Shown piece after piece: positions 2,982 to 40,222 of a stretch of DNA of 64,000 bases (position 1 is its first letter; each line of letters opens with the position of its first letter). The notes under the pieces were generated by a model, which had not been told where the DNA came from, ran no database searches, and worked only from the letters and a program-made list of their open reading frames with translations. The DNA is from Candidatus Hydrogenedentota bacterium (GTDB taxonomy: Bacteria; Hydrogenedentota; Hydrogenedentia; Hydrogenedentales; JAEUWI01): the NCBI GenBank assembly GCA_016791475.1, contig JAEUWI010000014.1, forward strand, positions 1 to 64,000, in the 5' to 3' direction. The translations under genes were made by a program, and so were the position numbers.

Positions 2982-3425
2982 TCAATCCGCCTGGGGCAGT
3001 TCATCGAGGTTAAGCAGGATTTCGTCCTCCAACGCGTGGGGGTCGTCCGCAATGCTTAAGAGAAGCCCTTTCAAGTACATATAGGAAACCGTGTCATAAC
3101 CGGTCAGGCGTACGCCGAAGCTCTCATGGTCTCGGGAGCACACGATGCCGCGCACTTCGATGAGCGTGTGGGTCTCTCCGACGAAACTGCAGACTACGGG
3201 AGTCCCCCGCTCCATGGGCTCGCGGTGTTCGACGCGCAGGCCGCCAACGGAGATGTCAACCACCGAAGCTTCGAAAGAAGCGCCGCCCTCGGGAACCACA
3301 GTCACAGGAAGATTTACGTCAATACGGGTGTAGGTGCGCTGGTTGTAACTGGACAATCGGGGAACTTTCCTCTCAAAGGGTAGATTCAACACCTCAGAGG
3401 CCGATGAGGCAAAAAATATGATCAA
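2982..3425 (-). CDS. PilZ-domain protein, putative c-di-GMP receptor
   Basis: A 147-residue single-domain protein. The c-di-GMP signature is complete: RTYTR at residues 30-34 (RxxxR), then DISVGG at 57-62 ([D/N]xSxxG), at the normal separation in a beta-barrel PilZ fold. The C-terminal 40 residues are acidic and Leu-rich. The longest frame starts at a TTG (3423-3425). A later TTG at residue 24 has AGAGG upstream and would start just before the PilZ motif, so the start is uncertain. No output domain is present, so it is likely to act by binding a partner. The window also encodes a diguanylate cyclase (16021-17625) that could supply the ligand. Confidence 0.88.
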   Translation of the reverse strand: MIIFFASSASEVLNLPFERKVPRLSSYNQRTYTRIDVNLPVTVVPEGGASFEASVVDISVGGLRVEHREPMERGTPVVCSFVGETHTLIEVRGIVCSRDHESFGVRLTGYDTVSYMYLKGLLLSIADDPHALEDEILLNLDELPQAD

Positions 3426-32658: not shown

Positions 32659-33912
32659 ATGTTAATTCAGAAAATCGCCGAAAACGATTTCCTCAACGAA
32701 GATGAAATTCGAGCCACGGTCACCGAGGCCTGCGCCTCCATGGACGTGGACAACAAGCGGGTGCTTTTCATCATCCCCGACAGCACGCGGAGCATGCCGC
32801 TGCCGCTGCTGTTCCGCGTGCTCTTTGATGCGCTGCACGACCGCGTGGCGAAGATGGACTACCTCATCGCGCTGGGCACCCACCCCCCCATGCCGGAATC
32901 GGCGATCAATCATATGCTCGGCGTGACGGCGGAAGAGCGGTCCGGGCAATTCGCCGGCGTGGGCATCTTCAACCATGCGTGGCGCGATCCAGCGTCGCTC
33001 ACCACCATCGGCCGCCTCACCGAGGACGACATAGAAGAGATTTCGGGCGGGCTGCTACGGGAGTCGGTCGAGGTCACCATCAATAAGCGTGTGCTGGACT
33101 ATGACCTGATCTGCATCGTCGGACCGGTATTCCCCCATGAGGTGGTGGGCTTCAGCGGCGGTTACAAGTACTTTTTCCCGGGTGTGGCGGGCGAAGCCAT
33201 TCTGGATGTGTTCCACTGGCTCGGCGCGCTGATCACGAACTACAAGATCAACGGCACCAAGGACACGCCGGTTCGGGCCGTCATCAACCGGGCCGCCAGC
33301 CTGGTGCCCACGAAAACGATGTGCTTCTGCCTCACGGTGGTACGCAAGGACACGAAGGCCGTCTTTTTCGGCGAGCCTCTGGAAGCCTGGAGCGCGGCGG
33401 CGGATCTGTCTTCGCAGACCCATATCATCTACAAGAAGAAGCCCTTCAAGACGGTGCTGGCCATCGCCCCGCCCATGTACGACGAGATCTGGGTCGCGGG
33501 AAAATGCATGTACAAGCTGGAGCCCGTGGTGGCGGATGGCGGCGAGCTGATCATTTACGGCGGTCACATTCACGAGGTGAGCGTAACCCACGACGTGATG
33601 ATCAAGAAGGTAGGCTACCACGTGCGCGACTATTTCACGAAGCAGGCCGAGCGCTTTGCGGATATTCCCGGTACGATCAAGGCTCATTCAACCCACGTGC
33701 GCGGGAACGGCACCTTTGAAGACGGTGTGGAAAAGCCCCGCGTCGATGTGACGCTGGCCACTTCGATACCGGAGGAAATCTGCAAGCAGATCAACCTGGG
33801 CTACCGCGATATCAACACGATTGACGTGTCGGCGTACGAGGGCCGGGAGGACGAGGGGATTCTGGTGGTGCACAACGCCGGGGAAATCCTTTATCGGATC
33901 GAGGGCGAGTAG
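32659..33912 (+). CDS. LarA-like (DUF2088) nickel-pincer racemase-family protein
   Basis: A 417-residue protein with the lactate racemase domain. Recognisable motifs in order: IIPDSTRSMP (the DxTR segment near residue 40), LIALGTHPPMP near 75, and VVGFSGGYKYFFPGVAGEAI near 165, which corresponds to the LarA region binding the nickel-pincer nucleotide through a Lys. LarA homologues racemise or epimerise hydroxyacids, including sugar acids. The cofactor genes larB, larC and larE are not in the window. With the adjacent SDR, HAD and hydroxyacid dehydrogenase genes, epimerisation of a sugar acid is inferred. Confidence 0.83.
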   Translation: MLIQKIAENDFLNEDEIRATVTEACASMDVDNKRVLFIIPDSTRSMPLPLLFRVLFDALHDRVAKMDYLIALGTHPPMPESAINHMLGVTAEERSGQFAGVGIFNHAWRDPASLTTIGRLTEDDIEEISGGLLRESVEVTINKRVLDYDLICIVGPVFPHEVVGFSGGYKYFFPGVAGEAILDVFHWLGALITNYKINGTKDTPVRAVINRAASLVPTKTMCFCLTVVRKDTKAVFFGEPLEAWSAAADLSSQTHIIYKKKPFKTVLAIAPPMYDEIWVAGKCMYKLEPVVADGGELIIYGGHIHEVSVTHDVMIKKVGYHVRDYFTKQAERFADIPGTIKAHSTHVRGNGTFEDGVEKPRVDVTLATSIPEEICKQINLGYRDINTIDVSAYEGREDEGILVVHNAGEILYRIEGE

Positions 33913-33943
33913 TTGCTACCACGGATGGCGCGAACTTCCCACT

Positions 33944-34159
33944 CGTTACCACGGTCCTCCGTGGTAATGCATATCGTTCCGCTCCAGCGGGACAGGGCGG
34001 GGAGTAGCTTCTCGAACCATCGAAAGACCACCGGCATAGGAACGCTACGGGCTGAACTGGCCACAAGACCAGTTGCCCTTTGTGCGTCCAAGCGACCCAC
34101 GCTCAACTTGTTCCGCAGAAGCGGAACGGTAGGCATTACCACGGTGGACCGTGGTAACG
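33944..34159. mobile_element. 216-bp inverted-repeat element, MITE-like
   Basis: The outer 26 bp at 33944-33969 and 34134-34159 are inverted copies differing at one position, and each is itself a palindrome (TTACCACGG with CCGTGGTAA). Similarity continues inwards about 25 bp on each side, including a second palindrome at CGTTCCGC...GCGGGAC and TTCCGC...GCGGAA. A further AACTGG-CCAGTT hairpin lies in the centre. It covers most of the spacer upstream of the TPR lipoprotein. It has no ORF of its own that I accept. Confidence 0.75.
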
Positions 34160-34179
34160 AGACTTTTTCTCTTTCGTTC

Positions 34180-34803
34180 TTGCGCTCTTTGTGGTTAATC
34201 CCTCTCCTCTTCTCCCTTTGCGGTTGCTACGAGGATCCCCGCGAGACCACATACACGCCCAAGACCCAGGCCGTGACGGCGTATGAAGCCGCCCAAACCG
34301 CCCTAAAATCGGGCGCCACCGACGAGGCCCTCGCGCAGGCTCGAGCGGCCCATGAGGCGGATCCCGCCTTTGACGCGGCGTCCTTCCTCCTCGCGAGTCT
34401 ACTCGGGCGTGCCGGACAATTCGAGGAAGCCATAGAGATCAGCGCCACCCTGACCGCCCGTTCGCCGAATTTTGTACAGGCCCATCTGCTCCAAGGTATA
34501 CTATGGGACCGATCGGGAAATTCGGACGCGGCCAACACCAGCTATGACGCGGCCCTGCGCTGTTTTGCGGCACTGCCGGAGTCGGATCGCGCCCGCCCGG
34601 AAACTGGACTGTACGAGGCCCTGACCACCTTTCTCCGTCATGGGAAACTGGAGGGCGTCAAGGCTGCAAACCGGCTGCTGGCAATATATCCGGACTATGA
34701 ACCGGCCTTGTATGTGAAGTCCTGCATGCTGGACAAGGATCGCGGCTTCCTGCTGCGCTGGTTCTCCGAACACAACGGAGACAGGCCACGGGAAGACGGC
34801 TGA
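34180..34803 (+). CDS. TPR-containing probable lipoprotein
   Basis: About 207 residues from a TTG at 34180. This start is inferred: it gives a clean leader, MRSLWLIPLLFSLCGC, whose Cys16 could be lipidated. The frame extends upstream to 33913, but that part is the inverted-repeat element. No strong ribosome-binding site is visible. The mature part has two to three TPR-like helical pairs (AYEAAQTALKSGATDEALAQARAAHEADPAF; ASLLGRAGQFEEAIEISATLTARSPNFVQA; then a third). A scaffold role in the periplasm or at the outer membrane is likely. It is followed 34 bp later by the phosphofructokinase gene. Confidence 0.65.
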   Translation: MRSLWLIPLLFSLCGCYEDPRETTYTPKTQAVTAYEAAQTALKSGATDEALAQARAAHEADPAFDAASFLLASLLGRAGQFEEAIEISATLTARSPNFVQAHLLQGILWDRSGNSDAANTSYDAALRCFAALPESDRARPETGLYEALTTFLRHGKLEGVKAANRLLAIYPDYEPALYVKSCMLDKDRGFLLRWFSEHNGDRPREDG

Positions 34804-34837: not shown

Positions 34838-36124
34838 ATGGGAAAGAATGTCATCGTCGCACAGTCCGGCGGCCCCAGCCCGGTGATCAACAGTTCGCTG
34901 CGCGGCGTCATCGACGGCTGCAAGGCCTTCCCCAATGCCTTCGGGACGATCTACGGCGGCTGGCACGGCATCGAGGGTGTGCTTAAGGAGGAACTGCTCG
35001 ACCTCTCGGCACAGTCCGAAGACGAAGTGGCCCTGCTTCGTTACACCCCGGCTGCGGGCGCCATCGGCACGTGCCGCTACAAACTCAAAGACAAGCAGAC
35101 CGAAGATTTTGATCGCATCATTGCCGTGATGAAGGCCCACGACATCGGCTACTTCTTCTACAACGGCGGCAACGACTCGATGGACACGGCCAACAAGGTG
35201 GCGAAGCTGGCCCACGAACGCGGGCTGGACCTGATTGCCGTTGGCGTGCCCAAGACCATCGATAATGATGTAGGCGACTCCGAATTCAAGCTCATCGACC
35301 ACACGCCCGGCTACGGCAGCGTGGCGCGCTACTGGATGGGCATCGTTCAGAACGCAAACGAAGAAAACGCCGGATCCTCCCCCGCCGACCCCGTGCTGGT
35401 GATCCAGGCGATGGGCCGCCAAATCGGCTACATCCCGGCTGCGGCGCGTCTGGCCGATCCGAAGCGCGAGCTGCCCCTCCAGATTTACATGCGCGAGTCC
35501 GCCGTGAGCGCCGAGGAAATGTGCGACAACATCAATGACCAGCTCCGCAAGGATGGCCGTTGCGTGGTGGTGGTGAGCGAAGGCTTCGACGTGGGCGACC
35601 TCGGCGAAGTGAAGGACTCCTTCGGCCACGCCCAGTTCGGCGCGTCCAAGCTGACGGTGGCGCAGAAGGTGGTAAATCTGTTGAATGATCGTGGCCTCGC
35701 CACGCGCGGCGCGGCCCGGGGTCAGGTGCCCGGCTGCGATCAACGCGACACCTGCACATACGCTTCCGTGGTGGACCTGGACGAGGCCTACCGCGTGGGA
35801 CAGAAGGCTGCGGAAATCGCGGCGAGCGGCGAGAACGGCTGGATGTCCACCATCCTGCGCAAGCCGGGCCTCATTTACAACGTCGAATACGACAAAGTGC
35901 CGTTGGAGCTCGTGGCCAACTCCGAGCGCACCTTCCCGGAAGCGTGGATTGCGCCGAACAAGATCGACGTCACCGACGAGTTCCTGAAGTATGCCACGCC
36001 GCTCATCGGCGAGGACTGGGCGAGCGTGCCGGTCATCAATGGCCGCCAGCGCTTCACCCGCTTCGTACCGAAGTTTGCCGAGAAGAAACTTCCCGCGTAT
36101 CAGCTTCAGGCGGCGCGGGACTAA
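34838..36124 (+). CDS. pfp: 6-phosphofructokinase, probably PPi-dependent
   Basis: A 428-residue PFK-family enzyme. AQSGGPSPVINSSLRG is the N-terminal phosphate loop, FFYNGGNDSMDTANK (near residue 105) replaces the GGDGS loop of ATP-PFK, and GVPKTIDNDV (near 137) has the Lys typical of pyrophosphate-dependent enzymes, where ATP-PFK has Gly. The length and the LVIQAMGRQIGYIPAAARLA segment fit the longer PFP/clade III group. The reaction interconverts fructose 6-phosphate and fructose 1,6-bisphosphate, reversibly if PPi is used. AGGAG is 6 bp before the ATG. Direct assay is required for the phosphate donor. Confidence 0.88.
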   Translation: MGKNVIVAQSGGPSPVINSSLRGVIDGCKAFPNAFGTIYGGWHGIEGVLKEELLDLSAQSEDEVALLRYTPAAGAIGTCRYKLKDKQTEDFDRIIAVMKAHDIGYFFYNGGNDSMDTANKVAKLAHERGLDLIAVGVPKTIDNDVGDSEFKLIDHTPGYGSVARYWMGIVQNANEENAGSSPADPVLVIQAMGRQIGYIPAAARLADPKRELPLQIYMRESAVSAEEMCDNINDQLRKDGRCVVVVSEGFDVGDLGEVKDSFGHAQFGASKLTVAQKVVNLLNDRGLATRGAARGQVPGCDQRDTCTYASVVDLDEAYRVGQKAAEIAASGENGWMSTILRKPGLIYNVEYDKVPLELVANSERTFPEAWIAPNKIDVTDEFLKYATPLIGEDWASVPVINGRQRFTRFVPKFAEKKLPAYQLQAARD

Positions 36125-39685: not shown

Positions 39686-40219
39686 CTATACACCGTCCGC
39701 CCTCGTCACCCGCAAGAGCCCGCGCTCGCCCGCGTAGTTCCGGGCGCTGGAATAGCGCCAGTGCTCGGGCCTGTCCACGTACCCCCGCTTAACCGGGTTC
39801 TCGTGGATGTAACGAATCTTCTCCGCCATCATCGTATCGTTCAGGATCAACTCGGGATGTACGCTTTCCTGCCAAAACTGCACATCCCGCTCGTCCTTGC
39901 GGTAACGCGGATAGAAATCGAAGTGGTCCAGCATCACGCGGACGTTGTGGTCGTTGAGAAATTTCAACAACTGCCGTCCTGTGTTGTATTTGAGGCGCGT
40001 GATGGTCTTTTCCAGATTTGGGCTCCGGGCGATAAAGTGAACGTGGTTATCCAGGACGACATAGGCATACACCACGAGGCCTTCGCCCATGAGGTAGTCG
40101 AAGCCGTCGAGGAGAATTGCCACGGTGTCGGGCCGCGTGAACACGGGCGCCCAGTGATAGACCGTGCACGTCATGAAATGGGGCTGGGTGGGATCGAGGA
40201 AGCGATTGGCGGAGTCCAC
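39686..40219 (-). CDS. REP-associated tyrosine transposase (RAYT, Y1 HUH family)
   Basis: A 177-residue Y1 transposase-like protein. The HUH motif is NHVHF (about residues 57-61), and the candidate catalytic Tyr is in IRYIHENPVKRGYV (about 135-148), followed by the RAYT hallmark EHWRYSSARNY. The length is typical. The start is GTG (40217-40219), three bases after the PPOX stop, and its ribosome-binding site GGGGGAG lies inside the last PPOX codons. It therefore looks cotranscribed and coupled to a haem gene rather than carried on an IS with its own ends. RAYTs act on REP-type palindromes; candidate palindromes occur elsewhere in the window. Confidence 0.9.
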   Translation of the reverse strand: MDSANRFLDPTQPHFMTCTVYHWAPVFTRPDTVAILLDGFDYLMGEGLVVYAYVVLDNHVHFIARSPNLEKTITRLKYNTGRQLLKFLNDHNVRVMLDHFDFYPRYRKDERDVQFWQESVHPELILNDTMMAEKIRYIHENPVKRGYVDRPEHWRYSSARNYAGERGLLRVTRADGV

Positions 40220-40222
40220 CCG

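Follow-up and report, generated by a model that had tools for sequence, protein, structure and literature searches.

The ends of IS200/IS605 elements are not known to carry terminal inverted repeats. In the REPINs and REPtrons of Pseudomonas fluorescens and Escherichia coli, as presented in the text passages of two reports (PMC3116915, PMC8266576), dispersed extragenic palindromes in inverted pairs form one long hairpin, single and paired repeats coexist, and the gene of a Y1 REP-associated tyrosine transposase (RAYT) is flanked by the same repeats. TIRtrons (TIRYT), in the text of Di Nocera et al. (2013, PMC3733652), carry a RAYT-like gene with long terminal inverted repeats (TIRs) that are partly self-complementary or double-palindromic and unrelated to GTAG REPs, and these repeats are scattered singly, in dimers, and in groups. 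Among the TnpA-Y1 transposases, subclass 2.6 has REP-like flanks without GT[AG]G and copies of the structure in the host genome, and the structures of subclasses 2.6 and 3 themselves are described as weaker or atypical (passages of PMC6006769).

We analysed a 64,000-nucleotide stretch (the window) of a Candidatus Hydrogenedentota genome of 7.7 Mb in 529 contigs (G000), in which a palindromic element lies between a LarA-like gene and a TPR lipoprotein gene. The many copies of its hairpin repeat, together with a transposase gene of the same genome framed by that repeat, make a non-coding jumping element the most likely reading. We are confident that it is a non-autonomous REPIN-like (TIRtron-derived) element, in which two inverted 53-bp units, each with a CTCG tag and two hairpins, would be the substrates of a trans-encoded Y1 (HUH) REP-associated tyrosine transposase.

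As in REPINs, two inverted REP units fold together, the repeat is dispersed, mostly extragenic, and present in many copies (at a modest number, 29 unit matches in G000), single and paired copies coexist, and a RAYT gene is flanked by the same repeat. Unlike the REPINs and REPtrons of the passages cited above, the repeat has a CTCG tag and not GTAG, a 53-bp two-hairpin unit, variable spacers, and only these 29 matches; since the GT[AG]G that precedes the hairpin on its 5' side in canonical REPs was not found in that role, we filed it as REPIN-like and not as a canonical GTAG REPIN. With TIRtrons it has in common a RAYT-type gene with non-GTAG TIRs, copies of which are dispersed as singles and dimers, and with subclass 2.6 the REP-like flanks without GT[AG]G and the structure copies in the host genome. 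The main text of PMC3733652 does not contain CTCG, and Hydrogenedentota was not found in the text covered; more generally, no earlier account of the CTCG tag appeared among the papers listed for the motif or for Hydrogenedentota. We regard the element as a previously unrecorded member of the known REPIN/TIRtron kind, and an earlier account of its tag may exist.

Architecture of the element

The element (Table 1) extends 2 bp further at either end than the earlier note had placed it. Conservation ends sharply outside the C of CTCG, with at most 0.4 bit per column across the 20 columns beyond it in an alignment of 22 units of G000, so that positions 33942 and 34161 are its true edges. Its two arms are 89% complementary (47/53 identical), and each follows the order CTCG, hairpin 1, GCATA-type linker, hairpin 2. 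The earlier note had described 26-bp ends differing at one base, each self-complementary, with similarity continuing inward: positions 33944-33969 and the reverse complement of 34134-34159 indeed differ by that one mismatch (1/26), and the similarity reaches 53 bp, while the ends are palindromes of an imperfect kind, with 6 and 4 mismatched positions against their own reverse complements. The alternative folds that it had anticipated were also recovered by computation. The element folds better than every one of 200 dinucleotide shuffles (z -11.0 as DNA, z -11.7 as RNA). Its two predicted alternatives are one extended hairpin, at -130 kcal/mol as RNA, and a set of short local hairpins, at -85 kcal/mol, that include all four of the two units.

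Table 1. Features of the element and of the surrounding gene cluster (positions in the window)
Feature	Positions	Strand	Details
Whole element	33942..34161	.	220 bp; tags-outward (head-head) inverted pair of 53-bp REP-like units with spacer
Left unit	33942..33994	+	Tag CTCG, hairpin 1, linker, hairpin 2; model R1, 78.7 bits
Left unit, hairpin 1	33946..33967	+	9-bp stem, loop TCCT
Left unit, hairpin 2	33976..33993	+	7-bp stem; covariation
Spacer	33995..34108	.	114 bp; unlike spacers of other pairs
Right unit	34109..34161	-	Architecture as left unit; model R1, 79.6 bits
Right unit, hairpin 2	34110..34127	-	Covariation
Right unit, hairpin 1	34136..34157	-	Inverted repeat and covariation
LarA-like nickel-dependent racemase/epimerase gene	32659..33912	+	Lar_N, 76.9 bits; stop 29 nt before element
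TPR lipoprotein gene	34180..34803	+	Likely TTG start at 34180, 18 nt after element; lipobox by eye
Phosphofructokinase gene, diphosphate-dependent type	34838..36124	+	NF010675, 368 bits (cut-off 273); third of conserved trio

A dispersed family of two-hairpin units

Searching G000 with the element returned 36 matches that cover the unit rather than the spacer, of which no second copy was found elsewhere in the genome; since the unit is palindromic, many places appear twice among the 36, once per strand. With a covariance model, the 29 matches of G000 are accompanied by 52, 44, and 60 in three congeners (G001, G002, and G003), by 87 in each of G004 and G005, and by some match in 15 of 60 genomes overall. 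A sequence in G003 that resembles the unit only weakly (L063, E 0.51) was not counted as a match. Other copies thus exist, and the earlier note's proposal of an inserted, repeated, mobile-type element is supported, that note having missed the paired 53-bp dispersed units and the transposase partner. A scan with an exact pattern of the unit, strict enough that it may omit the window's own genome, returned a single locus, in a Candidatus Hydrogenedentota MAG. In G001, four units of the same orientation stand in tandem with a period of ~81 bp (L133, G001:C10:118000-124500, positions 3026-3318).

A profile search gave 89 unit hits within 60 stretches around known places and the window. Alignment of 77 distinct units (11 hits below 33 bits and one duplicate being excluded) showed that both hairpins are kept by compensatory changes: (i) 96.6% of 1232 cells are paired, versus 33 to 56% in slid controls, (ii) 94 cells have changes on both sides versus 24.8 in shuffles, with 0 of 500 shuffles equalling it, and (iii) such changes on both sides are seen at 8 of the 16 base pairs. 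Outside the genus, matching places often have hairpin 1 and a GCAT linker, diverging in the second part. The units are mostly intergenic, since only 20 of 78 (again without the 11 hits below 33 bits) fall within crude ORF calls versus 63.2 expected, a count that may be an overestimate, since some ORFs, the TPR frame among them, cross the element without a stop.

Single units outnumber paired ones. In the count of pairs, which took all 89 hits, 22 neighbours lie at most 150 bp apart, 15 of them tags-outward (+-), 2 tags-inward, and 5 on the same strand, three of the latter belonging to one tandem array. Two independent single-unit insertions facing each other by chance, and not one paired mobile unit, would agree with the predominance of single copies and with the unrelated spacers, which vary from 50 to 114 nt and are mutually unlike in the 15 tags-outward pairs, save for a 12- to 14-nt end common to a few G003 pairs. 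We consider such a coincidence rather unlikely, given the excess of tags-outward neighbours (p 2.5e-5 against an expectation of 1/4), the narrow spacing of 60 to 71 nt in all tags-outward pairs of G003 within 150 bp, and the likewise arrangement of the transposase element described below. Nevertheless, with most copies single and the spacers unlike, the pair of the REPIN-like element may not move as one piece.

A transposase framed by the unit, and its tag

A 178-aa ORF of G000 (C9:73068-73604) lies between two copies of the element's unit that are 52 bp long, 94% complementary, and 678 nt apart. It passes the NCBIfam model of REP-associated tyrosine transposases (NF047646, 89.8 bits for a cut-off of 80) and falls below the Pfam Y1_Tnp cut-off (15.7 bits versus 23), and was detected by a home-made profile. 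A partner search with Pfam Y1_Tnp only had given 14 genes in G000, none with a confident unit nearby and one with a chance-level match (E 8, in L021). The AlphaFold model of the C9 protein (pLDDT 86, pTM 0.83) has as its best Foldseek match 4er8, TnpA-REP bound to a REP hairpin (E 5e-8), followed by IS200/IS605 transposases, and the HUH motif and the Y of YIHNNP are conserved among the aligned flanked transposase copies. The partner protein thus combines the HUH motif, the Y1 tyrosine, and the Y1 fold of the IS200/IS605 family, from which the C9 element differs by its long TIRs. It is these terminal repeats, flanking a Y1/HUH transposase gene, that make a classical MITE of a DDE transposase extremely improbable, even if the window's element is short, non-coding, and bounded by terminal inverted repeats as a MITE would be. 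At this one copy, which has no clean empty site, no target-site duplication is visible by eye.

Relatives of the C9 transposase were found in 18 of 40 genomes at E 0.001 and in 20 of 68 genomes of the phylum at E 1e-20. Among 25 loci examined, the 17 that reached both 42% identity and 145 aligned residues were counted; of the others, five were below 36% identity and three had short matches or flanks (L192, L193, L235). The motif CTCG[TC]TNCC stands inverted on both sides in 13 of the 17 loci, on one side in one, and on neither in three (the window, G001, and G053 copies), and it is absent from all five loci below 36% identity, where other repeats are found. The stem sequence of the TIRs is lineage-specific and the foot CTCGTTCCC is fixed, a second hairpin being predicted in 8 of 10 folded TIRs and not clear in G004 and G023.

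Several observations concern the surroundings of these genes. The gene left of the C9 element is conserved in G001, G002, and G003, where neither unit nor transposase was found at the orthologous locus and the right flank does not align; by eye, a hairpin and a T-run follow this gene in G002 and G003, and the C9 element begins 5 nt past a stem matching that hairpin. At E 1e-20, the incomplete assemblies of these three congeners yielded no close transposase relative that is intact, the sole match, in G001, having lost catalytic residues; their repeat populations apparently outlive or borrow their transposase. The window itself holds a second REP-associated tyrosine transposase gene (39689-40222, minus strand; NF047646, 89.4 bits), without terminal repeats and directly behind the gene of a protoporphyrinogen oxidase. 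These two neighbours recur in G001, where the oxidase is 72.5% identical and the transposase, in the alignment, lacks the catalytic Y as well as the second H of HUH, possibly a domesticated or decaying copy.

Two other Y1 genes close to units were examined as partners. One, in G005 (L098), has a unit ~160 bp upstream of its start and its own, other inverted repeats; we therefore interpreted this gene and the second, in G013 (L109), where a unit is cut by the flank, as lying next to units or as having inserted into them. In L109 (G013:C68, positions 1059-1090), the flank of the Y1 gene begins inside a hairpin-1 unit, beside GGGGACAG-type sequence, an arrangement that would fit the insertion of a TIR-type element into the repeat.

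Columns 1 to 4 of the unit alignment read exactly CTCG in 69 of 77 units. On the opposite strand, 2 nt from hairpin 1, GT[AG]G is present in 11 of 77 units and GTAT in 29 of 77, a pattern that may reflect a degenerate GTAG-type tag within the genus; by eye, it is not kept in more distant TIRs. A passage of PMC6006769 on the recognition of the GTAG guide names W94, Q95, E100, H101, and R104, the role of W94 being unclear. In an ungapped and weak sequence match to 4er8 (E 0.45), the C9 transposase, unlike the E. coli TnpA-REP, keeps only W94 and Q95, with P, Q, and L in place of E100, H101, and R104. The CTCG tag coupled to the replacement of three of these five contact residues makes a differently tagged branch possible. 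We tentatively raise, as a serious though not the favoured possibility, a separate class in Hydrogenedentota, made up of a RAYT branch and its own repeats, tagged with CTCG and often double-hairpin, in which the replacement of contact residues would accompany the changed tag and the hairpins would diverge by lineage around the fixed foot. If true, CTCG and the foot of the stem would be what the enzyme reads in place of GTAG.

Insertion into the lar-TPR-pfk cluster

In each of the 15 loci examined, the window's among them, the lar, TPR, and pfk genes lie next to one another (the best 15 TPR matches, from 25 genomes searched and 21 with a match); for the LarA-like protein, NF052594 is the best NCBIfam match, below its cut-off. 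The unit is absent from the 14 other orthologous loci, and insertion in this lineage is therefore the simplest reading; conservation of the spacer in distant relatives, which the earlier note had named as evidence for a cis-regulatory site, was not observed. A cis-regulatory RNA or attenuator native to the operon could be suspected from the position of the element inside a gene cluster, from the very stable hairpin possible as RNA, and from the T-rich sequence that follows it. Besides the absence of the unit from the orthologous loci, the copies at many unrelated places and the lack of any Rfam family at gathering score argue against it, and a consensus scan of 33700-34400, whose consensus may not suit this phylum, returned no promoter-like or terminator-like site; we judge this explanation quite improbable. 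The only sizeable match under lax Rfam settings, MIR839 (44 bits for a gathering score of 200, E 1.1e-7), was taken as a generic long hairpin.

Within the genus, the TPR ATG of G003 overlaps the lar stop codon, and 234 and 277 bp of other sequence separate the lar stop from the aligned TPR start in G001 and G002. Judging from these spacers, the lar-TPR site is variable within the genus. The unit is absent from the congener loci, but none is a clean empty site, G001 and G002 carrying other sequence, and by eye the flanks of the three congeners show no match to the remnants of 29 and 18 nt that border the element. No excised, newly inserted, or polymorphic copy was observed. At C7, a search for an empty site listed no orthologous flanks in the congeners. 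The TPR frame is open across the entire lar-TPR spacer both in G001 (L064) and in the window (33913-34179), and the two spacers look unrelated.

The earlier note had reasoned from the TTG start that the insertion may have changed the expression of the lipoprotein, which our comparison does not support so far. The poor start codon is a weak argument, because the G001 locus, free of the unit, also has no nearby ATG, GTG, or TTG; no ribosome-binding site is clear by eye at TTG 34180. According to the fold prediction, the transcript could form a 220-nt hairpin, and an effect of the element on TPR/pfk expression is plausible.

We propose a model in which the units, through their 5' CTCG tag and two hairpins, would be substrates of the C9 transposase acting in trans. 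By analogy with TnpA-REP and the IS200/IS605 enzymes, we infer that hairpins folded in single-stranded DNA would be bound by this transposase, which would cleave next to the tag and join the ends again. Pairs would thereby spread into intergenic sites, and one copy would have reached its present place between the lar and TPR lipoprotein genes.

Our study describes, in an uncultured phylum, a clear REPIN-like system and its matching transposase, together with a set of related transposase-repeat pairs. It also documents three congeners that have populations of the repeat but in which the search for intact close relatives of the transposase found none. Moreover, the recognition of the tag by RAYTs (GTAG versus CTCG) becomes testable by repeat swaps between purified enzymes.
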